A DNA stretch of 64,000 nt from Erythrobacter sp. HKB08 (GTDB lineage: Bacteria > Pseudomonadota > Alphaproteobacteria > Sphingomonadales > Sphingomonadaceae): assembly GCF_004114695.1 (NCBI RefSeq), contig NZ_CP035310.1:1161501-1225500 (forward strand), in the 5' to 3' direction. Every line of letters begins with the position of its first letter. Within the stretch, counting starts at the first letter, position 1. The notes below the pieces were generated by a model. The model saw only the letters and a list, made by a program, of their open reading frames with translations. It was not told the DNA's origin and made no database searches. Below, in pieces: positions 6,702-24,880 of the stretch. The position numbers and the translations under genes were made by a program.

Positions 6702-9278
<2,577 letters not shown>

Positions 9279-9314
9279 TCGAAACCCGCCTTCCGGTCCC
9301 TGCGACCGACCCAA

Positions 9315-9350
9315 CAAAAAAGGCCCCGGTTTCCCGGGGCCTTTCTTTTT
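9315..9350. terminator. Bidirectional rho-independent terminator between clpB and a TonB receptor
   Basis: Stem GGCCCCGG / CCGGGGCC around a TTTC loop, with an A-run on the left and CTTTCTTTTT on the right. The A and T runs make it usable on both strands. It sits between the convergent clpB and the receptor gene that ends at 9367. Confidence 0.9.
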
Positions 9351-9366
9351 GCAGGTCTGCCGCGAC

Positions 9367-12300: not shown

Positions 12301-12594
12301 GAGGGCGCCGTCGTTGAGGAGTTCACCTGCTTCAACCGTCGTAACCGGAACCGGCGAGTCGAGGTTCGGCTTCGCGATACGCGTACCCGAAACGATGATG
12401 AGCTGCTGTTCGGCCGGAGCTTCTGCGCTGTCGCAGACGCCGTTGCCGTCGGCATCGATGCAGTCGGGAGCGTCAGCATCCGCGTCCTGCGCGTAGGCAG
12501 GCGTGGCGAATGCGGCGAGCGACATTGCCGCGAGGCCTGCGCCTGCAAAGAAACGGCCCTTCGCAAGGCCGATGGTTGAAGAGGTTTTTCTCAT
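9367..12594 (-). CDS. TonB-dependent receptor (large, Oar/CirA-like)
   Basis: A 1075-residue outer-membrane beta-barrel receptor for energy-dependent uptake of an unknown substrate. A signal peptide ends at AYA-Q (about residue 35). Next comes an acidic stretch with a calcium-loop-like segment bounded by Cys45 and Cys54 (IDADGNGVCD), then the TonB box (LIIVSGTRI, 65-73), a plug domain (about 75-190, with LRGLGTSRTLTLVNGRR) and the barrel, ending in a terminal Phe (GFTADF). There is no FecR/sigma pair and no SusD-like lipoprotein nearby, so no regulation or substrate class can be read from context. It is convergent with clpB, and transcribed away from the small secreted gene upstream and the second receptor. 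Confidence 0.95.
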   Translation of the reverse strand: MRKTSSTIGLAKGRFFAGAGLAAMSLAAFATPAYAQDADADAPDCIDADGNGVCDSAEAPAEQQLIIVSGTRIAKPNLDSPVPVTTVEAGELLNDGALSLGDALNDLPSLRSTFNTSNSQRFIGTTGLNILDLRGLGTSRTLTLVNGRRHITASAGDFQVDVNTIPFELLERVDVVTGGSSAVYGSDAIAGVVNFVLKRDYEGFEVSGQAGISERGDNGRYNISAAWGKNFADGRGNVALVGEYTKIDRVLNSQRPDISGFGIGFTSFVTVDSDTELSNSDGNPDTVLQDNLFLDFISEGGTVQTFCIFGAAVQPLACDAAGNAARLRFDQNGRLFREENGQSFNGLAVGGTGSALAEGTLIPDIERYNINLLASYEVSPAFRPYIEAKYARIDALGQGTPTFFNSFCGGLSGASGLNPSCADGATSAFFFVDFDNAFLNPADVVTLRQIQDELLQGFGFPPGVGGAASQGFFINRNNTDFGTRNDDVTRETWRFVAGFEGDIASNTRYDVSFTYGRFESNLAAQNQIIYQNTRNAVDAVRNGSGQIVCRINADADTTNDDAACVPINIFGFGAPSQAALDYILTNSTLDDKAEQYDFLAYISTDSSPFFELPGGPVSVVVGTEWRRETAYSVPDALSASGATFFNAFSEFDPPALEVLEFFGELEIPLLADMPFFNELTVSGAARYSDYNSGAGQTGGVWAYNGNLIWSPVEDLRLRANYSRAVRSPTLSNLFSPATENFLFLNDPCDAANINNGTATREANCRADGVPVGFTDPVTGNRSVLQGGNPFLEAETSDSWTVGAVFQPSFLPGFSASVDYYNIDVARVIANISGNQILANCYDAPDLNNNFCPLVAPREADGSLATTNALNIAPINYANLTAEGIDFDVRYSHTFDNDDRISLRLIATHVLDRTNFLDVDNPDLPNRVKGELGDPEWAFNFNASYRRGPITLSYGMRWIDKQFIGAAENYVPFTTECISDGAGGGVIPRTTTACTVGELVTAPPANPDFTAEVYYPVRAYHDIRLDFQVNDQFNFYAGVDNLTDKLPPFALTGGGAGSGIFSNTGRYFFAGFTADF

Positions 12595-12880
12595 GAGTTT
12601 CCAGTCCCCATAGGAAGCCGGTACGACCCGGCCGGATTGAATGAAATCATTCTTGTAAGAGCTCGCCAGCCTTCCCCAGACCGACGCGCATCGGAGGGGG
12701 ATGCTTTACCGGGGGCAGGGTATCAATCGGATTCAGGCCAAAATTCCGAGTTTGCAGGCATTCTGTGTCGCATCGGCAACACAACTGTCGCCCAGCACTG
12801 CTTTGGTGGGGTTTTTCGCCCTGAAAGCGGGTGCGGACACAGCGGTTGGCTGCGCCCTCGAAGGTAGAATCACCGAACGC
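12595..12880. other. Leader/promoter region of the TonB receptor, no gene seen
   Basis: About 286 bases between the receptor start and the terminator of the next minus-strand gene. I see no credible coding frame; the small open frames here lack a ribosome site and any recognisable product. Two symmetric elements stand out: a perfect inverted repeat GAATGA-AA-TCATTC at 12639-12652, about 45 bases upstream of the receptor ATG, and a hairpin TGTGTCGC-ATCG-GCAACACA at 12764-12783 (one mismatch). Either could be an operator or a leader structure. Confidence 0.5.
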
Positions 12881-12920
12881 AAAAAGGCCCGGTCGCGATT
12901 TGCAACCGGGCCTATTTTCT
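12881..12920 (-). terminator. Rho-independent terminator of the small secreted protein gene
   Basis: Stem GGCCCGGT (12886-12893) and ACCGGGCC (12905-12912) with an 11-base loop. On the minus strand the stem is followed by TTTTT (complement of 12881-12885). It lies 30 bases after the stop at 12951. Confidence 0.85.
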
Positions 12921-12950
12921 TGCGTCACCAAATCCGGTGCGTGCCGAGGG

Positions 12951-13496
12951 TTATTCGATCCGCCGTCCCTTGACGCCGTTCTGGCCGTTGATTCGCACCC
13001 AGTAACTACCGAGCGCCGCGCGTTCGAACTCGACCGTGTCGCCGACCTTCACCCGGGCCAGGCGCATGGGCGCATCGGCCACCCGCCACACCGCACCGCC
13101 TTCCTCGATCCGGAAAACAAACGCATCGCGTTCGTAGTAGCGGACACTGGTGATGGTGGAGGTCAACAGTTCCTTTTCGTCCTCGTCGTCGCCGCCGCCG
13201 AACAGGCCGATCTTGGGCAGGTTGAAGCCGAAGAGGCTGCGCCGCGTCTTCATGACGTCTTCGCTGTCGAGCAGCCTGACTTCGCCTTCCTCGGTGGCCT
13301 TGACGACCTGTCCGACTGCCTGGTCGTAGCAGGCAAGGCGCTCGTCATTGTTTTCAACCGCCTGGCATTCCTTGAGGCGATCTAGGTAATTGCCTTGCGA
13401 GTCAGTGGCCGATTGATCCTGTGCCTGGGCATTAAATGCCAAGAGGCCGACAGATACACACAGGCCGAGCGTCATAATCTTGCTTGAACGGGTCAC
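12951..13496 (-). CDS. Small secreted protein of unknown function
   Basis: A 181-residue exported protein with no family I can name. I chose the GTG at 13496 because GGAGG sits six bases before it; the next in-frame ATG (13475) has no such site. The signal peptide runs through CVSVGLLAFNAQAQ (cleavage near residue 26). The mature part starts with LKECQAVENNDERLACYDQA, a Cys-x(n)-R-L-x-C-Y-D pattern seen in small periplasmic proteins of sphingomonads and some secretion-associated proteins. A Gly/Asp/Glu-rich turn (GGGDDEDEKE) separates this from a C-terminal beta-rich region that looks like an SH3/OB-type barrel (about 110-181, ending WVRINGQNGVKGRRIE). It lies between two TonB receptor genes, with its own terminator. 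Confidence 0.8.
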   Translation of the reverse strand: MTRSSKIMTLGLCVSVGLLAFNAQAQDQSATDSQGNYLDRLKECQAVENNDERLACYDQAVGQVVKATEEGEVRLLDSEDVMKTRRSLFGFNLPKIGLFGGGDDEDEKELLTSTITSVRYYERDAFVFRIEEGGAVWRVADAPMRLARVKVGDTVEFERAALGSYWVRINGQNGVKGRRIE

Positions 13497-13728
13497 GAAC
13501 AACCTCCGGGAATCGGGTAATTTCTCGCCATATTGCTCGCACATGCAGGCGTGGAAACCAACTGTAACTGGAAAGTCACACTCGCCAGTTTCCCCACGCC
13601 AAACGGGCTTGCGCGATTGCGAAGAACCCTTGCGTTGGCCTAGACGGCGCACATTCGGGCGATTTGTCCGAACTGCAAACCTAGTTTGAATGGGCGCCAA
13701 GGGGGCGTTCATGGATAAGGGGATTGGA

Positions 13729-16707
13729 ATGTCCAACCGTTTTAACAAAGCCGCTCTGCTGACCGGCACGATCATGGCTGGTGCCATGGTCGCTGTTCCG
13801 GCTCATGCGCAGGATGCGGATCCGGCCATGGGCTCGGAAGCTGCAATGCAGGGCGACGACGATTTCATCATCGTCACCGGCTCGCGCATTCAGCGCCGCG
13901 TCAACGTCGAAACCGCTGCGCCGGTCGCAGTCGTCGATGCCGAGGAATTCGAACTGTCGGGTACCGTCAACGTCGAGAACGTTGTCAACACCCTCCCGCA
14001 GGTCATTCCGGGCTTCACCTCGAACTCGAACAACCCGGGTACCGGTACCGCTACGCTGAACCTTCGTGGTCTCGGCTCGGCCCGTACGCTGGTTCTCGTC
14101 AACGGCCGCCGCTGGCTGTCGTACGACACCTCGCAGATCGTCGACCTTAACACGATCCCGAACTTCCTGCTCGACAGCGTCGACGTCGTTACCGGCGGTG
14201 CTTCGGCAGTCTACGGTTCGGACGCTATGTCGGGCGTCGTCAACTTCCGCCTCAAGGACGTCGATGGCGTCGAACTGGGCGGCCAGTACTCGATCACCGA
14301 GCGTGGCGACGGCGAGCGCTATCAGCTGCACGGTGCAATCGGCACCTCGTTCGACGATGGTCGCGGTAGCGCAACCGTCTTCGCCGAGTACTACAACCGT
14401 TCGTCCATCTTCCAGGGCGACCGCGCGTTCTCGAACTTCGCGCTGGGCGGTGAAAGCTTCGGCCTCGACCTGCTCCAGTTCGGTTCGTCGACCGTTCCGC
14501 AGGGCCGTTTCAACGCTCCGGGCAGCGTCGTCATTGACGCAGCGGGCAATACGGCACCGCTCGCTTCGGGTCTCGTCATCGACGACGGTATCTTCGACAC
14601 CCCGGGCGCTCCGCGTCGCCGTGCCGGCGACACCTACAACTACGCACCGGTCAACTACCTGCAGATCCCGCAGGAGCGTTACCTCCTCGGCGGTTACGCA
14701 GACTACGAGTTCACCGACGGCCACGAGTTCTACACGGAAGTTGCTTTCGTCAACAACCGCGTCGCTCAGGAGCTGGCGGCTACTCCGGTCACCGGTACGT
14801 TCAACATCGATATCGCTACTGTCTCGCCGTTCCTGAGCCAGCAGACGATCAACGAACTCAACATTCTGGACCAGCGTGAAGCCGCTGCCAGCGCTCAGCG
14901 TGTTGCAAACGGCCTTTCGCCGCTTTCGACCGCCGAGCTCGGCGTCGTCAGCGCATTCGTCCAGCGTCGTGTTCTCGAAACCGGCCCGCGTAACAGCCTC
15001 GACGAGCGTAACGCTTTCCGTGTGCTCGGCGGTGTCCGCGGTTCGATCACCGACAACCTGAACTACGATGCCTACTACATGTATGCTCGTACGCGTAACG
15101 CCAACGTCCAGCAGGGTAACGTCTCGCGCTCGGCCTTCCAGGCTGGCCTCGACGGCACCGGTACGCCGATCAACATCTTCGGCCTCAACACCCTGACGCC
15201 GGCAATGGTCGATGCGTTCAGCATCCAGGCACAGAACGGCGACATCTCGACCATGGAAGTTGCTTCGGGCGCCATCTCCGGCTTCCTCGGCAACCTCGGC
15301 ATGGGCGGTGACGACATCGGCTTCGCAGTCGGTGCCGAGTATCGCAAGGTCGGCTCGCGCTTCATTCCGGACACCGCGCTTTCGTCGGGTGACGTCATCG
15401 GCTTCAACGCCGGCGATGCAACCGAAGGTAGCTACGACGTCAAGGAACTGTTCGCCGAGCTCAACATTCCGATCCTCGGTCCGGAATCGGGCGTCGAACG
15501 TCTCGAAATCACCGGTGCGGCTCGCTACTCCGACTACTCGCTCGACGCGGTTGGCGGTGTGTGGACCTATGCCGGCGGCATCGAGTTCGCTCCGATCCCC
15601 GACGTTACGCTGCGCGGTCAGTACCAGCGTGCAGTTCGCGCTCCGAACGTGGGCGAGCTGTTCGGTGGTCAGGCCATCGGCTTCCCGGGCGCAACCGACC
15701 CGTGTGCTGATGCGAACTTCATCGCGAACAACCCGGGTGCAGACCAGGTCTGTATCGCTACGGGTGTTCCGGCTGCAAACGTCGGTAACGCTGCAGTGGT
15801 TCAGCTGAACCCGCAGATCCCGGCTCTGTTCGGTGGTAACCCGAACCTGCAGGAAGAAACCTCGACCAGCTGGACCGCCGGTGTCGTTCTGCAGCCGCAG
15901 TTCGTTCCGGGTCTGACGATCACGGCCGACTACTTCGACATCGTGATCGAAGACGCGATCTCGATCGCTGGTGGTAGCCTCCAGGGCCTGATGAACCTCT
16001 GCTACGGCGACGTGCAGGACGTTAACAGCCCGGTCTGCCGTCCGTTCGTTGGTATCCGTAACAACGACGGTGCCATCACGGTCGACGCTCCGCCGCTGGT
16101 CGCTGGCGTCAACATCGCAGAACTCGGCGTCTCGGGTGTCGACCTTCAGGTCAACTACACCACGACGCTTCCGTTCTCGCTCCTGACCGACACCGGTGAG
16201 CAGCGCTTCAACCTGAACTTCCTCGGCACCTGGACGGAGAGCTCCTTCTTCCAGCCGGTCGCTGCGCTTCCGCGTACGATCGAATGTGCTGGCGAGTTCG
16301 GCGGCGAGTGCGGCGAACCGACCCCGTCGTTCAAGTGGACGGCACGCGCCTCGTTCATCGATGGTCCGCTGACCACCTCGATCCGCTGGCGTCACCTGAG
16401 CGGTGTTGAAGACGATGACGTGGATGTCCTCTACACGGACTTCAACGGTATCGAGCGCATCAACGCTTACGACCTGGTCGACCTGACCTTCTCGTTCGAA
16501 GCTAACGAGAACATCACGGTTGCCCTGGGTGTGAACAACCTGTTCGACACTCTCCCGGGTACGCCTGAGTTCGACGCGAACGGCTTCGTCACGAACCGTC
16601 CGAACTCGCTGCTGCTTGGTGACAACCAGGAGCAGGCCAACACCTACCCGAGCACCTACGACGTGCTTGGTCGCGACTTCTTCGCTTCGGTCTCGGTTAA
16701 GTTCTAA
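13729..16707 (+). CDS. TonB-dependent receptor with high-expression codon use
   Basis: A 992-residue outer-membrane receptor. The signal peptide ends at AHA-Q (residue 28), the TonB box is FIIVTGSRI (46-54), then plug domain (LNLRGLGSARTLVLVNGRR near 110) and barrel ending FFASVSVKF with the terminal Phe needed for outer-membrane assembly. I chose ATG 13729 because AAGGGG lies about seven bases upstream; an in-frame ATG at 13711 with GGGGG before it is a possible alternative. Codon use differs from neighbours: many GGT, CGT, GCT, GTT and AAC codons, the pattern of very highly expressed genes. It shares its general design with the receptor at 9367-12594 but is clearly a different paralogue. 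The substrate is unknown. Confidence 0.95.
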   Translation: MSNRFNKAALLTGTIMAGAMVAVPAHAQDADPAMGSEAAMQGDDDFIIVTGSRIQRRVNVETAAPVAVVDAEEFELSGTVNVENVVNTLPQVIPGFTSNSNNPGTGTATLNLRGLGSARTLVLVNGRRWLSYDTSQIVDLNTIPNFLLDSVDVVTGGASAVYGSDAMSGVVNFRLKDVDGVELGGQYSITERGDGERYQLHGAIGTSFDDGRGSATVFAEYYNRSSIFQGDRAFSNFALGGESFGLDLLQFGSSTVPQGRFNAPGSVVIDAAGNTAPLASGLVIDDGIFDTPGAPRRRAGDTYNYAPVNYLQIPQERYLLGGYADYEFTDGHEFYTEVAFVNNRVAQELAATPVTGTFNIDIATVSPFLSQQTINELNILDQREAAASAQRVANGLSPLSTAELGVVSAFVQRRVLETGPRNSLDERNAFRVLGGVRGSITDNLNYDAYYMYARTRNANVQQGNVSRSAFQAGLDGTGTPINIFGLNTLTPAMVDAFSIQAQNGDISTMEVASGAISGFLGNLGMGGDDIGFAVGAEYRKVGSRFIPDTALSSGDVIGFNAGDATEGSYDVKELFAELNIPILGPESGVERLEITGAARYSDYSLDAVGGVWTYAGGIEFAPIPDVTLRGQYQRAVRAPNVGELFGGQAIGFPGATDPCADANFIANNPGADQVCIATGVPAANVGNAAVVQLNPQIPALFGGNPNLQEETSTSWTAGVVLQPQFVPGLTITADYFDIVIEDAISIAGGSLQGLMNLCYGDVQDVNSPVCRPFVGIRNNDGAITVDAPPLVAGVNIAELGVSGVDLQVNYTTTLPFSLLTDTGEQRFNLNFLGTWTESSFFQPVAALPRTIECAGEFGGECGEPTPSFKWTARASFIDGPLTTSIRWRHLSGVEDDDVDVLYTDFNGIERINAYDLVDLTFSFEANENITVALGVNNLFDTLPGTPEFDANGFVTNRPNSLLLGDNQEQANTYPSTYDVLGRDFFASVSVKF

Positions 16708-16736
16708 TCGACACCGCTGCGAAGCAGCACGAAATC

Positions 16737-16771
16737 GGGCGGCGAACCTTCGGGTTCGCCGCCCTTTTTCT
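16737..16771 (+). terminator. Strong rho-independent terminator after the TonB receptor
   Basis: A perfect 12-base stem GGGCGGCGAACC / GGTTCGCCGCCC (16737-16748 and 16753-16764) closed by a UUCG tetraloop and followed by TTTTTCTTT. One of the best-formed terminators in the window. Confidence 0.95.
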
Positions 16772-16848
16772 TTGCGCTACCAACAAGCGCGCATGAGCAG
16801 GCTCGGCGCCGCTAGCGCGAGCTGGCCAGGATTTTGAGATACGGTGAG

Positions 16849-17760
16849 CTAGTCCGCGTGGCGGAAGACGCGGAAGTCCGCGAAGGGCGCGGCGTCCGGA
16901 CCCTCGCGCAGGGGCGTCGAGGAAACCTGCTGCAATCCGCCCGCAGTGCAGGCGGCAAGGAAGGCGATCTCGTCCTTCGTCGTATTGCAAGCCGCTTCGA
17001 GCGAGGCGATCCGCCCAAGCTCGTTCTTCGCCTTGAGCGCAATCGTATCGAGCGTGCGGGCGACATTTGCCGGAAGGTCGCGCTGACCCATCATCAGGGT
17101 CTGGCGAATGGCTTCCGATATTTCCCAAGCAGCTGACCGGGCACCGAAACGCTGCGCCCCTTCAAGCGGAGCGCTGGCGATCTTCGGCGGGAAGATGGCT
17201 ATGCCGGTGCCGCGCAGCGCAAGGCTGCGCTTGGCGATGGCGAAGAGGTCCTGCTCTTCCACCACCCATGCAATCTGCTCGCGGCGCGCCAGATTGTGGG
17301 CGAGGATCGGTCCATCGGCGCGGTGCGTCATGAAGGCGATCGCGCCACCGGGTTCGACCACCCGGGCAATCTCGCGGGCGGCCTTTTCCGTGTCACCATA
17401 TTCGAAACCGAACTGGCTGACTGCGGCTGAAAAGAAGTCGTCGCGAAAGGGCAAGTCTTCCATGGCGACGCTGGTATGGATCTTGGCCTTGGTCGGCGGC
17501 GCGGGAAGCTCCTGTGCCAGGTCGCAGCCGGTCAGCTTCAGGTCGCCCCTGTTTTCGGCAATCCAGCCGAGCACGCGGCCGTCACCGGTCGCGATGTCGA
17601 GCAGCCGGGCTTTCTGTGGCAGGCCCTTGGCGAACTCCACCCAGGCCGACTGCTGGACGGCATCGATGCCCTGCCAGCCTGCGGGAAGGCAGCCGCCCCC
17701 ATCGCTCTCGACATTATCGGCCCAGAAGTCGTTCCATGCAGACGCGTGATCTTTCCCCAT
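16849..17760 (-). CDS. Class I SAM-dependent methyltransferase
   Basis: A 303-residue protein with a Rossmann-type methyltransferase domain in its N-terminal half. Motif I is LDIATGDGR at residues 54-62, preceded by the usual helix; motif II acidic residue is in TGCD, and a motif IV-like segment is VSQFGFEYGD. The rest is helical and unlike the methyltransferases I know by name, so the substrate (small molecule, quinone or protein) cannot be stated. It is the last gene of a three-gene minus-strand run: its start at 17760 is only 5 bases after the stop of the TPR oxygenase gene. This tight spacing suggests it acts with the two oxygenases. Confidence 0.85.
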   Translation of the reverse strand: MGKDHASAWNDFWADNVESDGGGCLPAGWQGIDAVQQSAWVEFAKGLPQKARLLDIATGDGRVLGWIAENRGDLKLTGCDLAQELPAPPTKAKIHTSVAMEDLPFRDDFFSAAVSQFGFEYGDTEKAAREIARVVEPGGAIAFMTHRADGPILAHNLARREQIAWVVEEQDLFAIAKRSLALRGTGIAIFPPKIASAPLEGAQRFGARSAAWEISEAIRQTLMMGQRDLPANVARTLDTIALKAKNELGRIASLEAACNTTKDEIAFLAACTAGGLQQVSSTPLREGPDAAPFADFRVFRHAD

Positions 17761-17765
17761 GGCGA

Positions 17766-19451
17766 CTAACCTTGCACGAGGCTGACGTCGAAAGCCACCG
17801 TCATCCGGCGTGCCGATTCAAACGGGCGTGTGCCGTGGTAGAGTGTGCTCGGGAACAGGGCGAGATGCGCCTCTCGCGGTTCGATCATGCGGATCGGGCC
17901 GAGATCGAGCCGCAAGTCGGGCGGGGGCCTGCCGAGTTCCAGCCAGCCCGCATGCGAATCGTCTCCGCCCAGTTCAGGAAGCTGGCAGTAAAGCGCGGAG
18001 GAGATCACCCCCTGCGGGTGGATATGCGAGGTATGGAAATCCCCGCCGCCCGACAGGCGCACCGACCAGGAACCGGTGATGTGCCACGGAGCGTCACGAT
18101 GCCGCAGGATCGGATGCGCTGGATCGGCAGGAGGCATCTTCGAGCGGTGCTCCTCGACCGTCGCGAGAATGGCCTCGTGCAAGGCGGCGATCTCGGGCTC
18201 GGTACGGTGGAACAGGATCCCGCGTGTCTGGCTCCCTCCGCGCAGGGACTGGCCGAGCGGCAGCGGTGAATTGTCATGCAGGCGGTGGAGCAGTGCGATG
18301 GCAGGCGGCAGCACGCGTTCGGCGTCATGCAGCGGCCTCAGCTCGTGGAGCCCCTCCTGGTGATGGAGCCATTCCTCGCGCGGATCGCCGGTCAGACGCC
18401 AGACGATACCGCGCAGCGCCCATGCGCCGATATCATCGGGTGAATGCGCAACTGCCTTGTCGAGCAAGGCTTCCGCCAGGTCGTATTCGCCGCGCCTGAT
18501 CCGGTGGCGCGTCTCGTGGACATGCCAGTCGAGCGCATCGATCTGGAATTCGGCGAAGATTTCCTCCGCCCGGTCATCATCACCTGCAGCCCCGGCGTAG
18601 ACAGCCTCGAGCAAGGCGAAATGCGGCTTGTCGGGAAACGCCTTGTGCGCCCGCGCCGCGACTTCGGTCGCCTGCTCGTTATAGTCGAGCCCTGCGAGCG
18701 TCCTGCACCACGCGTCGAGGATGTTCGGGTCCTGCGGAACTTTCGCGGCGGCGTCGCCATAGTGCGAGGTGAAGTCCTCCTCGCCGGCCGCAAGCCGCAA
18801 CTGCGCGAGGAATTGCAATCCTTCGGGCCACGCAGGGGCCTGCTGGACGACCTGCTCCATGATATTGCGCGCGCCGGTCGTCTCGCCGAGCACATCGAGC
18901 GCCTGCGCCTTGCCGAGCCAGAGGTATGGATTGCCCGGATCGTGCTGCAGCGCGCGGTCGAAGCGGGCGAGGGCGTCGGCCTCTCCGCGCTCCAGCGCGA
19001 CGCTGGCGCGGCCGACGAGCGCCTTGGGCCGCGCGGGCTCTATGGACAACGCGCGGTCGTACCATTTCGCTGCAGCCTCGGCATGGCCCGCGCCGCGCTC
19101 CGCATTGGCGCGGGTCGAACAGTAATGCGCGAAGGCTGCCGCCTGCGTCTCGATCCGCTTGAGCACTTTGAGCGCATCATGGTGACGGTTCGCATTCGAC
19201 AGCGCGATTGCCTGGTCGATTGCGAAGTCGAATTGTCCCGGGGCCAGTTCATATGCCTTGCCGAAGTGCTCAGCCGCCTCGACCGGTTCGCCGAGGGACA
19301 GGAGCACATTGCCCGCACCATGCCACAGCTGAGCTTCGCGCGGATAGGCGGCGAGGGCATCGCGCAGGATGGCGTGGGCTCCGGCATTGTCGCCCGATTG
19401 AGCGGCCGCGGCGGCCTTGTTGTACCAGCCCTGTGCGGACAGTCCGCTCAT
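17766..19451 (-). CDS. TPR-repeat protein with C-terminal 2-oxoglutarate/Fe(II) oxygenase domain
   Basis: A 561-residue fusion. Residues 1 to about 390 are tetratricopeptide-type helical repeats (for example AREAQLWHGAGNVLLSLGEP and AWPEGLQFLAQLRLAAGEE regions), a protein-binding scaffold. The C-terminal part (about 400-561) matches putative 2OG-Fe(II) oxygenases: HTSHIHPQGVISSALY with His473/476/478 for the metal, distal His539 in TLYHGT, and Arg548/549 in SARRMTV for 2-oxoglutarate. It most likely hydroxylates a bound protein or peptide, but the target is unknown. Its ATG overlaps the stop of the upstream oxygenase gene as ATGA (19448-19451), so the two should be translationally coupled. 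No signal peptide, so cytoplasmic. Confidence 0.9.
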   Translation of the reverse strand: MSGLSAQGWYNKAAAAAQSGDNAGAHAILRDALAAYPREAQLWHGAGNVLLSLGEPVEAAEHFGKAYELAPGQFDFAIDQAIALSNANRHHDALKVLKRIETQAAAFAHYCSTRANAERGAGHAEAAAKWYDRALSIEPARPKALVGRASVALERGEADALARFDRALQHDPGNPYLWLGKAQALDVLGETTGARNIMEQVVQQAPAWPEGLQFLAQLRLAAGEEDFTSHYGDAAAKVPQDPNILDAWCRTLAGLDYNEQATEVAARAHKAFPDKPHFALLEAVYAGAAGDDDRAEEIFAEFQIDALDWHVHETRHRIRRGEYDLAEALLDKAVAHSPDDIGAWALRGIVWRLTGDPREEWLHHQEGLHELRPLHDAERVLPPAIALLHRLHDNSPLPLGQSLRGGSQTRGILFHRTEPEIAALHEAILATVEEHRSKMPPADPAHPILRHRDAPWHITGSWSVRLSGGGDFHTSHIHPQGVISSALYCQLPELGGDDSHAGWLELGRPPPDLRLDLGPIRMIEPREAHLALFPSTLYHGTRPFESARRMTVAFDVSLVQG

Positions 19452-20191
19452 CGGTCGCGCACCCACCCGGTGATTGCGTAGCGCCCGACCGGCGCGAAGG
19501 GCGCGACATACTGCACCGAGTGCAATTGCGGCACGAGGAACATGTTGAGCGCGTTGAAGCGCGGACGGTAGCCTTCGATGATGTCGCCATCCTCGTTGTG
19601 GAACACCAGGTGGCCGCCCCAGTCGGGCTTCCAGTCGTCGATGGTGAAGTTCATCACATAGGCGATGCGCCACCCTTCGGCGACGTGGCTGTCGCTGTGC
19701 TGTGCGAGGAAGTGGTTCTGCGCATAGAGCGTCGCCTGTCCGTCGGCCTTTACCAGCTCCTTCAGCCCGGTGACGTCGCGCACCAGGTCGAGAAAGCCGG
19801 GGGCGTTGATATATTCGAGCAGCAATTCGTGCGGGCCGCCGGGCGCGAAACCTTTCTGCACCGCCTGCACGAGGCTGAACTGGGCATAGCGAAAGCCGTA
19901 GTCGCCGCCGCGCACGGCATCGTCGACCGCCTTGTAGAGTTCCTGCAAGCGGCGCTGGCCGTTGGGCGTGCGTAGCTGGGCGGGAAGCACCTGCTGCGGC
20001 CCTGGCGGATCGGCGATCCCCGCCTGCGCCGCGATGCCCCACGGCGTTTGCTGGGAGAGGATATTGCGGATCTCCTCCGCCGTCTCGCGCGTCAGGAAGT
20101 CGCGGATCTGGATGCGCTTGTTGCGCGCGAACTCCTCCGCCAGCGCCGCGCGATCGAGTGCCGGATTGATTTCGAACAGTGCCTTGACCAT
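19448..20191 (-). CDS. 2-oxoglutarate/Fe(II)-dependent oxygenase (predicted prolyl-hydroxylase type)
   Basis: A 247-residue cytoplasmic protein with the full double-stranded beta-helix signature: His165-x-Asp167 in QHSDSHVAEGWR, distal His224 in QLHSVQYVAP and Arg237 in GRYAITGWVR. The HSVxxVxP...GRxAITGW segment is typical of the predicted proline hydroxylases related to yeast Tpa1/Ofd1, which modify a ribosomal protein or a transcription factor. I chose ATG 20191 (MVKALFEINP); a longer frame reaches 20251 but adds only basic residues. First gene of the operon that continues into the TPR oxygenase (overlap ATGA) and the methyltransferase. It is divergent from the thiolase gene, with 183 bases between them. 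Confidence 0.9.
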   Translation of the reverse strand: MVKALFEINPALDRAALAEEFARNKRIQIRDFLTRETAEEIRNILSQQTPWGIAAQAGIADPPGPQQVLPAQLRTPNGQRRLQELYKAVDDAVRGGDYGFRYAQFSLVQAVQKGFAPGGPHELLLEYINAPGFLDLVRDVTGLKELVKADGQATLYAQNHFLAQHSDSHVAEGWRIAYVMNFTIDDWKPDWGGHLVFHNEDGDIIEGYRPRFNALNMFLVPQLHSVQYVAPFAPVGRYAITGWVRDR

Positions 20192-20297
20192 CTCCGCGCA
20201 CACTAGGCCGCTACGCCTTGCTCGCAAGAGGGCTGCCATAAAGATGCGCAACTATCGGGGTAGGGCAGGCCGCATCCGGAGTCGCAGGTCATAGCGC

Positions 20298-20326
20298 TTG
20301 ACCCCTCAGGCAGCGCGACCTAACGC
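20298..20326 (+). promoter_or_regulatory. Possible housekeeping promoter of the thiolase cassette
   Basis: TTGACC at 20298-20303 and TAACGC at 20321-20326, spaced 17 bases, about 50 bases before the thiolase ATG. The -35 is good, the -10 weak. Based on pattern only. Confidence 0.35.
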
Positions 20327-20374
20327 TTACGCAAACGGAAAGTCAGAAGACAAATTCCACCGGGAGAATCGAGA

Positions 20375-21547
20375 ATGCCTGAAGCCTATATCGTCGAAGC
20401 CGTGCGCACGGCCGGTGGCCGCCGCGGCGGTCGTCTTGCCGGGGTCCACCCGGTCGATCTCGCAGCCAAGTCGCTCGATGCAGTGATGGAGCGCAGCGGG
20501 CTCGAAGCGAAAGTCATCGACGATGTGGTGATGGGCTGCGTCAGCCAGGGCGGCGAACAGGCGATGCAGGTCGGCCGCAACGCCGTCCTTGCAGCAAAGC
20601 ACCTCGGCGAAGGCGTTCCCGCCGTCACCATCGACCGCCAGTGCGGTTCCTCGCAGCAGGCGATCCAGTTCGCCGCGCAGGCCGTGATGAGCGGAACGCA
20701 GGACATCGTCATCGCCAGCGGCGTCGAAAGCATGAGCCGCGTGCCGATGGGCTCGACTGCCATGTTCCACATGAAAGAGGGGCTGGGTAACTACAAGTCG
20801 CCGGGTCTCGAAGAGAAATATCCGGGCATCCAGTGGTCCCAGTTCATGGGCGCCGAGATGATCGTCAAGAAGCACGGCTTCACCAAGGACGACCTCGACC
20901 GCTTCGCCCTCGGCAGTCACCAGAAAGCGATCGAAGCGACCAATTCGGGCGCATTCGAGAACGAAATCGTCCCCGTAAAGATCGAGACGCCCGAAGGCAC
21001 CGAGATGCACACGGTGGACGAAGGCATCCGCTTCGACGCGACGCTGGAAAGCATTGCGAGCGTCAAGCTGCTGAACCCGGAAGGCACGATCACCGCGGCA
21101 ACGTCGAGCCAGATCTGCGACGGTTCGAGCGCGGTCCTGGTCGTGTCGGAACGCGCGCTCAAGGAACACAACCTCAAGCCGCTCGCCCGCATTCACAACC
21201 TGACGGTTACCGCAGGCGACCCGGTCATCATGCTCGAAGAACCGCTCTTCGCGACCGACCGCGCTCTCCAGCGCGCGGGCATGAACATCGGCGACATCGA
21301 CCTGTACGAAGTGAACGAGGCCTTTGCCCCGGTTCCGCTCGCATGGCTCAAGCATACCGGCGCCGACCCGGACAAGCTCAACGTCCACGGCGGTGCGATC
21401 GCGCTCGGCCACCCGCTCGGCGCATCGGGCACCAAGCTGATGGCGACGCTGGTCCACGCGCTGCACCGCCACGGCAAGAAATACGGTCTCCAGACGATGT
21501 GCGAAGGCGGCGGCGTCGCCAACGTCACGATCATCGAAGCACTTTGA
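20375..21547 (+). CDS. Acetyl-CoA C-acyltransferase (thiolase)
   Basis: A 390-residue thiolase catalysing CoA-dependent cleavage of 3-ketoacyl-CoA, or the reverse condensation, in the cytoplasm. All catalytic residues are in place: nucleophile Cys90 in DRQCGSSQQ, His346 in GHPLGASG and Cys376 in MCEGGGVAN. Length is normal for the family. The N-terminal insert lacks a marked biosynthetic PhaA signature, and it sits with a short-chain dehydrogenase, a crotonase and a MarR regulator. I therefore favour a degradative role in beta-oxidation of a specific acyl-CoA. It is followed after 29 bases by the dehydrogenase gene, almost certainly on the same transcript. Confidence 0.95.
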   Translation: MPEAYIVEAVRTAGGRRGGRLAGVHPVDLAAKSLDAVMERSGLEAKVIDDVVMGCVSQGGEQAMQVGRNAVLAAKHLGEGVPAVTIDRQCGSSQQAIQFAAQAVMSGTQDIVIASGVESMSRVPMGSTAMFHMKEGLGNYKSPGLEEKYPGIQWSQFMGAEMIVKKHGFTKDDLDRFALGSHQKAIEATNSGAFENEIVPVKIETPEGTEMHTVDEGIRFDATLESIASVKLLNPEGTITAATSSQICDGSSAVLVVSERALKEHNLKPLARIHNLTVTAGDPVIMLEEPLFATDRALQRAGMNIGDIDLYEVNEAFAPVPLAWLKHTGADPDKLNVHGGAIALGHPLGASGTKLMATLVHALHRHGKKYGLQTMCEGGGVANVTIIEAL

Positions 21548-21576
21548 TTCACCCCCCATTTCGAGAGGATTTTTCC

Positions 21577-22362
21577 ATGGAAGTTTCAGCCAATACTCCT
21601 GCCGTCGTAACCGGCGGTGCATCCGGCCTCGGTGAAGCCACCGCCCGCGCGCTCGCTGCCAAGGGCGCGAAGGTCGCCATCTTCGACATGAACGAAGAGA
21701 AGGGCGAAGCGGTCGCGAAGGACATCGGCGGCGTGTTCTGCAAGGTCAATGTGACCAGCGACGAAGACGTCGATGCAGGTTTCGCCAAGGCGCGCGAAGC
21801 GCATGGCCAGGAACGCATTCTCGTCAACTGCGCAGGCATCGGCAACGCGATCAAGACCGCCAGCCGCGACAAGCAGTCGGGCGAAATCAAGCACTTCCCG
21901 CTCAGCGCGTTCGACTTCGTGATCCAGGTGAACCTCATCGGCACCTTCCGCTGCATCGCCAAGTCGGCTGCGGGCATGATGACCCTCGATCCGCTGACCG
22001 ACGAGGGCGATCGCGGCGCGATCGTCAACACCGCTTCGGTCGCTGCCGAAGACGGCCAGATGGGCCAGGCGGCCTACTCGGCGTCGAAGGGCGGCGTCGT
22101 CGGCATGACCCTGCCGATCGCGCGCGACCTTATGCGCGAAGGTATCCGCGTGAACACCATCCTGCCGGGCATCTTCAACACCCCGCTGATGAACGCCGCG
22201 CCGCCGCAGGTGAAGGAAGCGCTGGCCGCATCGGTCCCGTTCCCCAAGCGTCTCGGCTACCCCGAGGAATACGCCAATCTCGCCATGTGCATGATCGAGA
22301 CCGGCTATTTCAACGGCGAGGATGTCCGCCTCGACGGCGCCATCCGCATGGCACCGCGCTAA
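21577..22362 (+). CDS. Short-chain dehydrogenase (3-hydroxyacyl-CoA dehydrogenase type 2-like)
   Basis: A 261-residue classical SDR. The NAD(P)-binding motif is TGGASGLG at 12-19, NCAG near 84-87, and the catalytic Ser154, Tyr167 and Lys171 (YSASK) are all present. Asp37 after the second beta strand (IFDMNEEK) favours NAD. SDRs with this N-terminus next to a thiolase are usually 3-hydroxyacyl-CoA dehydrogenases like human HSD17B10, giving the 3-ketoacyl-CoA that the thiolase then cleaves. ATG 21577 has GAGAGG about nine bases upstream. The gene ends just before a terminator-like hairpin at 22380. Confidence 0.93.
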   Translation: MEVSANTPAVVTGGASGLGEATARALAAKGAKVAIFDMNEEKGEAVAKDIGGVFCKVNVTSDEDVDAGFAKAREAHGQERILVNCAGIGNAIKTASRDKQSGEIKHFPLSAFDFVIQVNLIGTFRCIAKSAAGMMTLDPLTDEGDRGAIVNTASVAAEDGQMGQAAYSASKGGVVGMTLPIARDLMREGIRVNTILPGIFNTPLMNAAPPQVKEALAASVPFPKRLGYPEEYANLAMCMIETGYFNGEDVRLDGAIRMAPR

Positions 22363-22379
22363 GCGACAGAAAAAGGGAA

Positions 22380-22403
22380 GGGCGGCCAACGAGCCGCCCT
22401 TTT
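22380..22403 (+). terminator. Intercistronic terminator or attenuator between the dehydrogenase and crotonase genes
   Basis: Stem GGGCGGC / GCCGCCC (22380-22386 and 22393-22399) with a 6-base loop, followed by TTTTC. It lies between the stop at 22362 and the crotonase ATG at 22430, so it would split or weaken read-through to the next gene. Confidence 0.75.
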
Positions 22404-22429
22404 CATTGGCGCAATCGGGAGAGAAAAGC

Positions 22430-23302
22430 ATGGCCGACTACACGCAGATCAAGGTCGAAAAGGAAAACGGCATCGCGACCGTCACCCTGCATCGTCCGGA
22501 GAAGATGAATGCCTTCACCCGCGTGATGATGGACGAAATCATCGCCGCGATGGACGATATCGACGAGGACGACAGCGTGCGGGCGGTGATCTTCACCGGC
22601 CACGGCGACCGGGCCTTCTGCGCCGGTGCGGACCTCACTCCCGAGGGCGGGGGGCATGTCTTTTCCGACCCCAACCCGGTCGAGGACCTGTCCGATCCGC
22701 GCGTGCGCGACGGTGGCGGGCGGCTGACGCTGCGCCTGTTCGACAGCAAGAAGCCGCTGATCGCCGCCTGTAACGGGGTGGCCGTGGGCGTCGGGATTAC
22801 CATGCAGCTCGCAATGGATATCCGGCTGGCATCGGACAATGCGCGCTACGGGTTCGTGTTCGCGCGGCGCGGCATCGTTCCGGAGGCGGCTTCGAGCTGG
22901 TTCCTCCCGCGCATCGTCGGTGTGCAGCAGGCGCTCGAGTGGTGCTACACCGGCCGGATCTTCGATGCGCAGGAAGCGAAGGACGGAGGCCTGGTCCGCT
23001 CGGTCCATCCGCAGGCCGAACTGATGGATGTGGCCCGCGGCCTCGCGCGCGAGATCGCCGACAATACTTCGGCCGTTTCGGTTGCGATGACCCGCGCGAT
23101 GATGTGGCGCCTGCCGTCGGGCGACCATCCGATGGCCGCACACCGGGTCGACAGCAAGGCGATCTATCGCCTCAGCCGCAGCGAAGACGCGAAGGAAGGA
23201 ATTGCCAGCTTCCTCGAAAAGCGTCCTCCGAACTATCCCGACACAGTCAGCGACAACATGCCCGACTTCTATCCCTGGTGGGATGAGCCGGAATATCGCT
23301 AG
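22430..23302 (+). CDS. Enoyl-CoA hydratase/isomerase family protein (crotonase)
   Basis: A 290-residue crotonase-fold enzyme. The oxyanion-hole motifs are FCAGADLT (near 66-73) and NGVAVGVG (near 118). The glutamate typical of hydratases is present in GIVPEAASSW, while the first hydratase glutamate position is not obvious, so isomerase or another crotonase chemistry is possible. The C-terminus is longer than in FadB-type domains and ends in PDFYPWWDEPEYR. It sits in the CoA cassette between the dehydrogenase and a MarR regulator, but behind its own hairpin, so it may have separate expression. Confidence 0.92.
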   Translation: MADYTQIKVEKENGIATVTLHRPEKMNAFTRVMMDEIIAAMDDIDEDDSVRAVIFTGHGDRAFCAGADLTPEGGGHVFSDPNPVEDLSDPRVRDGGGRLTLRLFDSKKPLIAACNGVAVGVGITMQLAMDIRLASDNARYGFVFARRGIVPEAASSWFLPRIVGVQQALEWCYTGRIFDAQEAKDGGLVRSVHPQAELMDVARGLAREIADNTSAVSVAMTRAMMWRLPSGDHPMAAHRVDSKAIYRLSRSEDAKEGIASFLEKRPPNYPDTVSDNMPDFYPWWDEPEYR

Positions 23303-23356
23303 CCCGTCCGGGGCTGGCGCTTGCCAAGTGAACCGGTTGCATTAGAAACCAAAAGC

Positions 23357-23803
23357 ATGAGCAACAGCGCCGCCCCCGAGTTCGTCCTTGCCGATTTCCT
23401 GCCGTACCAGCTTTCGGTCGCCTCCAATGCGGTGAGCAACCGGATCGCGGACGTCTATCGCAAGGAATTCGGCCTCAAGGTCACCGAGTGGCGCGTCATG
23501 GCGATGCTCGGCGATGCAGGCGCGCTTACCCAGCGCGAACTCACCGCCCGCACGCTGATGGACAAGGTCGCGGTCAATCGCGCCTGCAAGGTGCTTGCGG
23601 AGCGTGAACTGGTGCGTCGCCAGCCCAACTACCGCGACGGTCGCTCGCACCTGCTCGAACTGACCGAGGCAGGCCAGGACATGCATGCCCGCATCGTCCC
23701 GCGCGCCCGCGCGATCGAGGAAGAACTGCTGGACGCTCTGGGCGAAGAGCAGGCCGGGGCGTTCCGCTCGATGCTCGAGGAAATCCGCCAAAAGGCCGGT
23801 TGA
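23357..23803 (+). CDS. MarR family transcriptional regulator
   Basis: A 148-residue winged-helix regulator. The helix-turn-helix region is LTQRELTARTLMDKVAVNRACKVL (split here as LTQRELTART and DKVAVNRACKVL), followed by the wing with YRDGRSHLLELTEAG. MarR proteins bind as dimers and release DNA on binding a small ligand, often an aromatic acid or its CoA thioester. Placed 54 bases after the crotonase gene, it probably controls the preceding CoA cassette; this is inferred from position. ATG 23357 begins the family-like sequence. The frame is open from 23321 but without an ATG or ribosome site. Confidence 0.92.
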   Translation: MSNSAAPEFVLADFLPYQLSVASNAVSNRIADVYRKEFGLKVTEWRVMAMLGDAGALTQRELTARTLMDKVAVNRACKVLAERELVRRQPNYRDGRSHLLELTEAGQDMHARIVPRARAIEEELLDALGEEQAGAFRSMLEEIRQKAG

Positions 23804-23842
23804 AACAAACCGGCCCCGGAACCTGCGTGAGGTTCCGGGGCC
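23800..23842 (-). terminator. Terminator of the Tad pilus operon
   Basis: A 13-base perfect stem (23812-23824 and 23830-23842) with a 5-base loop. On the minus strand it is followed by GGTTTGTTTC. It lies 30 bases beyond the tadC stop at 23873 and also just after the convergent MarR gene. Confidence 0.8.
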
Positions 23843-23872
23843 GATCTCCCCCAGATCGCGTCTGGTGAGCGT

Positions 23873-24880
23873 TTAGCGCCCCGGTTGCTGTGCGAACGCG
23901 TCGCTGATCGAACAGGCCGCCGGGCCGAGAATGACGATGAACAGCACCGGCAGGATGAACATGATCAGCGGAATGGTCATGATCGCCGGCAGACGTGCTG
24001 CCTTTTCCTCGGCGCGCATCATGCGCTCGTTGCGGAATTCGGCCGACAGTACGCGCAGCGCGGATGCGAGCGGCGTACCGTAGCGTTCGGTCTGGACCAT
24101 CGTCGTCACCACGCCGCGAACCGATTCCAGATCGACACGGTAAGCGAGGTTGTCGAATGCCATCTTGCGCTCGCCGAGGAACGACAGCTCGATCGCGGTC
24201 AGGGCGAATTCGTCACCCAGTTCCGGATAGGCGCGGCCCAGTTCCTTGGCGACGCGGTTGAACGCAGCGTCGACGGTGAGACCGGCTTCGGCGCAGATGA
24301 CAAGGAGGTCGAGTGCGTCCGGCAGGCCCTTGCGGATTTCGCCGGTGCGCTTGCTGGCCTTGTTCTTCAGGAAGATTTCCGGGCCCTTGTAGCCCGCAAA
24401 GACCATCACGCTGAGCGCGCCGACACGCTTGATGCCGCCCCAGTCGGGGAAATAGTCGATCACGTAGATGAACAGGAATGCCAGCAGGCCGAGGACGATC
24501 GGCAGCACCATGCGTGCCGCGATAACCAGGACCGCGAGTTCCTTGTTGCGGTAGCCGGCATGCGCCAGCTTCTGCTGGATTTCCTCGATCTGGCTCTGCT
24601 GGAGGACTTTCATCCCCTCCAGCGTGTCCTTCATCTTCTCGGTCTGGTCGGTCTTGCGAACGAGGCTGGTGCGCTTCTTCGCATTCGACTTGACGATGCC
24701 TGCCTTGAGCTCGTCGCGGCGCTCGTTGAGTGCCTTGACGCGCTTGGCCATCGGATCCTTGACCGTAACCGCCGCGTAGACGGCAAGCATCACTGCCGCT
24801 GCCGCGATCCCAGCGAGGATCGAGCCGACGACGATGACGTCGAAGCCGAGAAGGGTCGGGCCGGGTTGCTGACTGATCAT
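23873..24880 (-). CDS. tadC: Tad pilus inner-membrane protein TadC (type II secretion F domain)
   Basis: A 335-residue inner-membrane platform protein. An N-terminal transmembrane helix (about 13-36) is followed by a charged, partly coiled cytoplasmic segment, two helices near 117-137 and 150-165, the GspF/T2SF domain (PDALDLLVICAEAGLTVDAA, about 200-300) and a C-terminal helix (AIMTIPLIMFILPVLFIVIL). With TadB it forms the platform on which the Flp pilin fibre is built by the motor ATPase. Last gene of the locus, 16 bases after tadB. Confidence 0.93.
   Translation of the reverse strand: MISQQPGPTLLGFDVIVVGSILAGIAAAAVMLAVYAAVTVKDPMAKRVKALNERRDELKAGIVKSNAKKRTSLVRKTDQTEKMKDTLEGMKVLQQSQIEEIQQKLAHAGYRNKELAVLVIAARMVLPIVLGLLAFLFIYVIDYFPDWGGIKRVGALSVMVFAGYKGPEIFLKNKASKRTGEIRKGLPDALDLLVICAEAGLTVDAAFNRVAKELGRAYPELGDEFALTAIELSFLGERKMAFDNLAYRVDLESVRGVVTTMVQTERYGTPLASALRVLSAEFRNERMMRAEEKAARLPAIMTIPLIMFILPVLFIVILGPAACSISDAFAQQPGR

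Follow-up and report, generated by a model that had tools for sequence, protein, structure and literature searches.

What substrate could unite two 2-oxoglutarate (2OG) oxygenases and a methyltransferase whose genes follow one another on a single strand? We address this question for a 64,000-nt stretch of Erythrobacter sp. HKB08 (contig NZ_CP035310.1), hereafter the window, from whose first letter all coordinates are counted. A first-pass annotation had proposed that the three genes, here named OXY1, TPRX, and MT, form a modification operon. Our analysis supports a conserved modification unit; it is not the free-standing three-gene pathway that was envisaged, however, but belongs to a TonB-dependent receptor (TBDR). 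This receptor, TBDR1, which is convergent with the operon, had been missed together with the two genes beyond it, DUFa and TBDR2. The reading that we prefer, with a probability of roughly 45%, is that the enzymes tailor an exported protein in the cytoplasm, most likely TBDR1. It is based on the gene structure, co-inheritance with the TBDR, the protein folds, the conserved active sites, the near absence of signal peptides from the enzymes, and the exchange of enzymes between related loci.

The gene block and its receptor

The open reading frames (ORFs) of the window place the three genes on the minus strand in the order OXY1-TPRX-MT, with an ATGA overlap at the OXY1/TPRX junction and a 5-base gap between TPRX and MT, just as the annotation had described (Table 1). 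Across a survey set of 246 Sphingomonadales genomes, relatives of OXY1 occur in 70, the TPRX oxygenase domain in 149 (among the matches listed), and relatives of MT at E 1e-20 in 28. By a reading that combines the three genome scans with the locus survey, the complete order is present in 18 of these genomes, distributed over nine genera that all belong to the window's family (among the matches listed); Parerythrobacter lutipelagi, P. lacustris, Parapontixanthobacter aurantiacus, Citromicrobium bathyomarinum, Alteriqipengyuania abyssalis, and Erythrobacter litoralis are examples. This order is more than chance. The annotation had made its proposal depend on conservation beyond a few strains, and such conservation is found, though within one family.

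The receptor enters the picture when the surroundings of the TPRX oxygenase domain (oxygenase-5) are compared. At 27 of 113 places OXY1 lies upstream and MT downstream of TPRX on the same strand, with a convergent TBDR next at 25 and a contig end at the other 2. The rest comprise 25 places with TPRX and a convergent TBDR only, 6 with OXY1-TPRX and a TBDR without MT, 2 with TPRX-MT and a TBDR, 1 with TPRX-MT and no adjacent TBDR, and 52 with none of these arrangements. The 113 places were partly chosen by an OXY1 or TBDR match and include a few genomes twice, so these fractions are not frequencies. L042 and L055 are one genome under two handles; near-identical loci (L042/L055 and L038/L040) were thinned for the distance, spacer, and signal-peptide analyses and kept in the residue, tree, and order counts.

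All linkage counts rest on six-frame hidden Markov model matches instead of called genes because the gene caller calls some antisense ORFs. Starting from TBDR1 (E 1e-150, best three candidates per genome scored, 246 genomes), we obtained 43 places in 38 genomes, and an enzyme of the set lies within 5 kb at 38 of the 43 and at none of the other 5. Within this distance are TPRX at 33 places and OXY1, MT, and DUFa at 24 each. Starting from TPRX, a TBDR1-type receptor is present within 5 kb in 24 of 37 hand-picked loci (of 40 regions, L115-L117 were omitted since they had been chosen for OXY1), and starting from OXY1, at 45 of 70 places. As a control, twenty 20-kb regions from 20 of the same genomes gave one partial match to the TBDR1-type profile, which measures that receptor type and not all TBDRs. 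The window's own genome has 22 PF00593 rows, 20 of them outside the window, and no enzyme of the set was found in the 18 regions around these 20. In a TBDR tree, which was made quickly, has some long branches, and draws mostly on loci selected through OXY1 or TPRX, all 32 rows of TBDR1's clade have TPRX within 3 kb; the neighboring clades show different sets of enzymes, with no enzyme in a few rows. The TPRX/TBDR pairing is also wider than the three-gene order: 8 of 20 hand-picked TPRX loci from outside the Sphingomonadales hold a TBDR1-type receptor, and one of them, L187, from another class, also holds OXY1.

OXY1, TPRX, MT, and TBDR1 have pairwise distances that remain correlated once those of the flanking SDR and thiolase genes are taken out (partial r 0.39-0.60, permutation p 0.001-0.015, n = 15 loci sharing the same flanking genes). 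The distances of TBDR1 do not follow the flanking genes (r 0.02 and -0.01), those of OXY1 and TPRX correlate moderately with thiolase (0.34 each), and the flanking genes evolve much more slowly than the unit. Because the four genes vary together and TBDR1 does so independently of its flanks, the unit is inherited as a block, which by itself is no proof of joint function. The same correlations would fit a mobile cassette whose parts are linked through joint transfer only. So would the changing chromosomal settings of the block, which lies between clpB (6702-9278) and a divergent thiolase/SDR/enoyl-CoA hydratase set in the window, next to clpB in reversed orientation in L065 and L066, beside recN/ligA in L051, L054, L056, and L059, and in a different setting in L053 (clpB, recN, and ligA named by reading). 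We hold such a cassette to be the least probable of the explanations considered: the same receptor type occurs with varying enzymes, in varying orientations and families and in another class, which is hard to obtain without selection if the pairings arose independently.

Active sites and folds of the enzymes

OXY1 matches PF13661 at 64.4 bits and also PF13640, with PF10637 below cut-off and nothing else at E 0.01. Its candidate metal ligands H165 (19697-19699), D167 (19691-19693), and H224 and its 2OG-binding arginine R237 form the HxD...H plus Arg pattern of 2-His-1-carboxylate Fe(II)/2OG enzymes; H165, H224, and R237 are kept in 71 of 71 rows and D167 in 70. The claim that both oxygenases retain all iron and 2OG residues thus holds for OXY1; in TPRX it holds for the arginine and fails for the iron set, as described below. 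The AlphaFold2 (AF2) model of OXY1 (pLDDT 92.2) has the fold of the Tpa1/OGFOD1 catalytic domain. Its closest fold matches are Tpa1 (4nhk; Z 21.4 over 197 residues, root-mean-square deviation 2.5), OGFOD1 (Z 20.0), and PPHD (Z 19.4), which agrees with the likeness to Tpa1 noted in the annotation; an uncharacterised Burkholderia oxygenase (6n1f, Z 19.1), PHD2 (Z 18.6), PolD (9blq, Z 18.6), and PasI (9ei7, Z 17.9) are close behind.

These nearest folds suggested to us that OXY1 might modify a translation protein, either uS12, the substrate of the prolyl hydroxylases Tpa1 and OGFOD1, or EF-Tu, that of PPHD, and that its link to a TBDR might be incidental. The shared fold and HxD...H...R site speak for this idea, which we nevertheless regard as quite improbable. 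OXY1 is patchy (70 of 246 genomes), whereas its would-be substrates are universal, and it neighbors a TPR-oxygenase and, at most of its places as counted above, a TBDR1-type receptor. It is also a single domain with 17-21% identity to these enzymes in structural alignments. Tpa1 and OGFOD1 carry a second, C-terminal double-stranded-helix domain, and OXY1 lacks this half, its 247 residues aligning only to approximately residues 23-248 of Tpa1 and the matched chains being 457-563 residues long. The PKHD C-terminal domain, a feature of the PKHD-type oxygenases PiuC, YbiX, and CciO, was not matched in OXY1 in a profile scan at E 0.01.

Relatives of OXY1 also occur as tandem duplicates or triplicates (L045:9210-10708; L074, with three copies at 8-10 kb; L073; L116). 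The OXY1 family may have other roles, because a TBDR1-type receptor is mostly not seen near these copies; that of L074 lies at 13 kb.

TPRX matches tetratricopeptide repeat (TPR) families and is a member of PF13759 (62.4 bits against a gathering score of 27), while its match to TIGR02466 (34.8 bits) falls below that family's cut-off of 62.5. It departs from the HxD/E...H pattern. The residues H476 (18024-18026), H478 (18018-18020), H539 (17835-17837), and R549 (17805-17807) are present in all 114 rows, which represent 113 places because the window's row is counted twice. Histidine thus takes the place of the usual carboxylate ligand throughout, and iron would presumably sit on three histidines.

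The closest folds to the TPRX model (AF2, pLDDT 91.3) are TPR proteins, among them OGT and the TPR-oxygenase AspH. TPRX shares with AspH the layout of a TPR superhelix followed by an oxygenase domain; the Foldseek alignments to AspH extend over 474-507 columns with a TM score of only 0.2-0.3. AspH offers a precedent for such a departure, since the abstract of PMC13168262 contrasts it with the usual iron triad of 2OG oxygenases. TPRX differs from it in having PF13759 in place of PF05118, for which no match was found at E 0.01, and in its HxH site; TPR-AspH proteins proper are separate members of the related loci described below. Of 50 VIA-align rows for TPRX, mostly TPR proteins, 3bvc (Z 17.1) and 2rg4 (Z 16.5) alone match the oxygenase domain by itself. 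Both carry the same H..HxHP motif, and they differ from TPRX in being short chains (203-216 residues); both are titled uncharacterised. A search of the open-access literature for PF13759 by its names found no title about the function of the family.

MT matches PF08241 at 44.2 bits. Its best solved relative is LahSB (6uak), a weak match (E 2.1e-4, 24 bits) that covers residues 46-168 and so the general S-adenosylmethionine (SAM)-binding part. LahSB is a lanthipeptide methyltransferase, and it directs attention to a product like a ribosomally synthesized and post-translationally modified peptide (RiPP): the enzymes would mature a ribosomal peptide, the TBDR would take it up, and a peptidase of the S9 (prolyl-oligopeptidase) family would cut it. 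Of the 43 TBDR1-type places, 9 have an S9 peptidase within 5 kb, an arrangement that resembles the receptor/isopeptidase loci of lasso peptides. We judge such a product improbable because the spacers hold no conserved small ORF; no search for a precursor at other genomic sites was made. Among 24 MT-TBDR spacers (median 164 bp) none is conserved, among 18 TBDR-DUFa spacers none recurs in more than three loci, and such small ORFs as many loci do share all lie antisense to the thiolase start. No RiPP gene adjoins the operon in the window.

The S9 peptidase is often found beyond DUFa (L032, L034, L035, L042, L049, L057, L058, L061, L062), in some loci beside a second TBDR; in the window, TBDR2 occupies its place. 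In-frame TGA codons occur in single relatives of the methyltransferase (G207:C1:1970166-1971065) and the TBDR (G164:C1:1009816-1012767), which are possibly decaying copies or sequencing errors.

Exchangeable enzymes and the likely substrate

In related loci with the same receptor type, other enzymes are found: TPR-sulfotransferases (PF13469), TPR-AspH proteins (PF05118), and PF13640 oxygenases with Sel1 repeats (Sel1-P4H). Three of the enzyme types carry TPRs, and one has weak, below-cut-off Sel1 repeats. For one representative of each of these other enzymes, the best solved relative is a protein-tyrosine sulfotransferase (E 1.4e-14), an aspartyl/asparaginyl beta-hydroxylase (E 2.2e-26), and a prolyl 4-hydroxylase (E 1.3e-30), respectively. 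All three, like LahSB, are enzymes that modify polypeptides. Signal-peptide-like N-termini are nearly absent from the enzymes (MT 0/41, sulfotransferase 0/16, Sel1-P4H 0/10, TPR-AspH 0/8, OXY1 1/60, oxygenase-5 3/105) and are common in DUFa (30/50) and in called TBDR genes (53/124).

A further family of approximately 334 residues recurs next to OXY1 or TPRX (L067:7616-8620, L081:6749-7753, L050:613-1374, L111:5250-5780). It holds, by reading, a stretch like a sulfotransferase phosphate-binding loop; the L067 member, the only one scanned, has no Pfam match.

What stays constant across these loci is an exported receptor together with cytoplasmic, mostly repeat-bearing enzymes whose relatives act on proteins, and for this reason tailoring of the TBDR or of DUFa is the best supported reading. 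Since OXY1 folds most like Tpa1, OGFOD1, and PPHD, and the nearest relatives of the enzymes that occupy the corresponding position in related loci modify proteins, we infer that a polypeptide is the likelier substrate. OXY1 would hydroxylate the polypeptide; TPRX would grip it with its TPR superhelix and oxidise it at the histidine-only (HxH...H) iron site; and MT would attach a methyl group. All three would work in the cytoplasm on a protein that is made there and exported afterwards, most likely TBDR1 before it arrives at the outer membrane, possibly DUFa. The modification would be required for receptor function, ligand choice, or protection. The choice of the TBDR as substrate and of the residues that would change is likewise inferred.

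Several observations weigh against this reading. Comparison of 31 TBDR1-clade sequences with 6 outgroup TBDRs revealed no modification motif; of the 17 clade-specific conserved positions, a single one is Pro, and none is Asn, Asp, or Tyr. The operon and TBDR1 have no shared transcript because they are convergent. No TBDR1-type receptor is in view in 13 of the 37 TPRX-first loci (at least 3 of them near contig ends), in 12 of the 20 hand-picked TPRX loci from outside the Sphingomonadales, or within 5 kb at 17 of the 70 OXY1 places. Joint transfer alone would also yield the correlated distances. The signal-peptide measure is a crude hydrophobicity cut, which flags just 53 of 124 called TBDR genes. 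The folds closest to OXY1 include, besides the uncharacterised Burkholderia protein, PolD and PasI, and because these two are small-molecule enzymes, the modeled fold alone does not decide the substrate class of OXY1.

In the residue comparison, two columns seemed to follow the absence of MT: Tyr 318, which is Phe in four of the five rows that lack MT, and Glu 397. Both were dropped as uninformative, as the nested MT-less row kept both residues.

Table 1. Genes of the block and its receptor neighbors, with the parts of TPRX (window coordinates)
Feature	Position	Strand	Description
OXY1	19448-20191	-	247-aa 2OG-Fe(II) oxygenase, PF13661/PF13640
TPRX	17766-19451	-	561 aa; TPR superhelix and C-terminal 2OG-FeII_Oxy_5 (PF13759)
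TPR part of TPRX	18363-19451	-	approximately residues 1-363; model helices 6-363
PF13759 oxygenase domain of TPRX	17787-18071	-	residues 461-555
MT	16849-17760	-	303-aa class I SAM methyltransferase, PF08241
TBDR1	13690-16707	+	TonB-dependent receptor; Plug and barrel Pfam matches
DUFa	12951-13475	-	small putative secreted protein; signal-peptide-like N-terminus
TBDR2	9367-12525	-	second, more distant TonB-dependent receptor adjoining DUFa; looser member

In the window, TBDR1 adjoins MT tail to tail and is followed by DUFa and then by TBDR2. The start given for DUFa is that of the gene caller, and its ORF stays open further upstream; the protein has two cysteines near its N-terminus, and profile scans gave only sub-threshold VasI-like matches. 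TBDR2 aligns with TBDR1 in two pieces, at 34% and 47% identity, and a TBDR beyond DUFa, in either orientation, is also present in L033, L036, L038, L040, and L041. The clpB and thiolase flanks lie outside the unit because other genomes carry the block in other settings. In several relatives (L096, L098-L100) as in the window (6702-9278 and 20375-23302), the clpB-thiolase interval, counted once as both are flanks of one site, houses either this unit or a different combination of TBDR and enzyme genes, and so resembles a favored location for receptor modules.

Known receptor-oxygenase pairs

The first-pass annotation knew of no described bacterial system with this combination. The combination indeed appears to be new, yet the partnership of a TBDR with a cytoplasmic 2OG-Fe(II) oxygenase is known from CciT-CciO of Caulobacter, where the oxygenase is of another type and receptor function needs it (PMC11870441; PMC12004943). 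A conserved neighborhood of this kind is what we find here, with TPRX within 5 kb of the receptor at the 33 of 43 places given above. The likeness to CciT-CciO, and to Fiu-YbiX and PiuA-PiuC, lies in the pairing. The differences are that CciT and CciO form one operon with one oxygenase, whereas here the genes are convergent and comprise two oxygenases of other families (PF13661 and TPR-PF13759) and a methyltransferase, and that TBDR1 is one of a group of receptors whose partner enzymes vary.

The same precedent gives rise to the main rival explanation, in which the oxygenases and MT would act on a compound imported by the TBDR or on a metallophore made by the cell, as proposed for PiuC, YbiX, and CciO. 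We consider it doubtful, if the most serious competitor to receptor tailoring. It can draw on PolD and PasI among the folds near OXY1 (Z 18.6 and 17.9) and on the strict dependence of CciT on cytoplasmic CciO, for which siderophore synthesis or breakdown is among the options of the authors (PMC11870441; PMC12004943). The enzymes that share a slot in our loci are mostly TPR-fused, however, and nearest to protein-modifying enzymes. The window's unit holds no transporter gene that could deliver a ligand to cytoplasmic enzymes, the neighbors in other genomes being only partly annotated, and no riboswitch or other RNA was found at gathering score in window positions 8500-24000.

CciT also bears on the tailoring of a receptor. 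PMC11870441 reports that CciT is made and targeted without CciO, and its authors discuss siderophore-related roles, both of which count against a modified receptor. The targeting result excludes a need for the oxygenase in targeting; in our reading, it does not exclude a covalent modification required for activity.

Searches of the open-access literature, a scope that leaves most subscription papers outside, turned up CciT-CciO and otherwise nothing that describes this module. The halotolerance-linked clusters of PMC10040529 include an AspH-domain protein and TBDRs, not linked to each other in the part available, and the accessible part of PMC4295552 has nothing on TPR or TonB. What is new here is not the TBDR-oxygenase pair but its makeup: one receptor type is accompanied by oxygenases from two other families, one of them with an HxH site, by a methyltransferase, and by exchangeable relatives of protein modifiers.

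Taken further, receptor tailoring leads to a wider proposal, which we put forward as tentative and hold less firmly than the reading from which it grows. Before leaving the cytoplasm, a group of TBDRs may receive covalent modifications from an exchangeable, repeat-guided kit that comprises hydroxylases of the prolyl and Asp/Asn types, an enzyme resembling tyrosine sulfotransferases, a histidine-only oxygenase, and a methyltransferase. In bacteria, such a kit would correspond to the modifiers of the eukaryotic secretory pathway, and it might determine which ligand the receptor accepts or shield the receptor from phages and bacteriocins.

The receptor link gives a functional context to the PF13759 TPR-oxygenases with an HxH site. 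To the best of our knowledge, no study has dealt with enzyme-made modifications on bacterial outer-membrane receptors. If the receptor is the substrate, such receptors would carry modifications of this kind, and mass spectrometry could directly test why a TBDR depends on an oxygenase in the cytoplasm, as CciT does on CciO.

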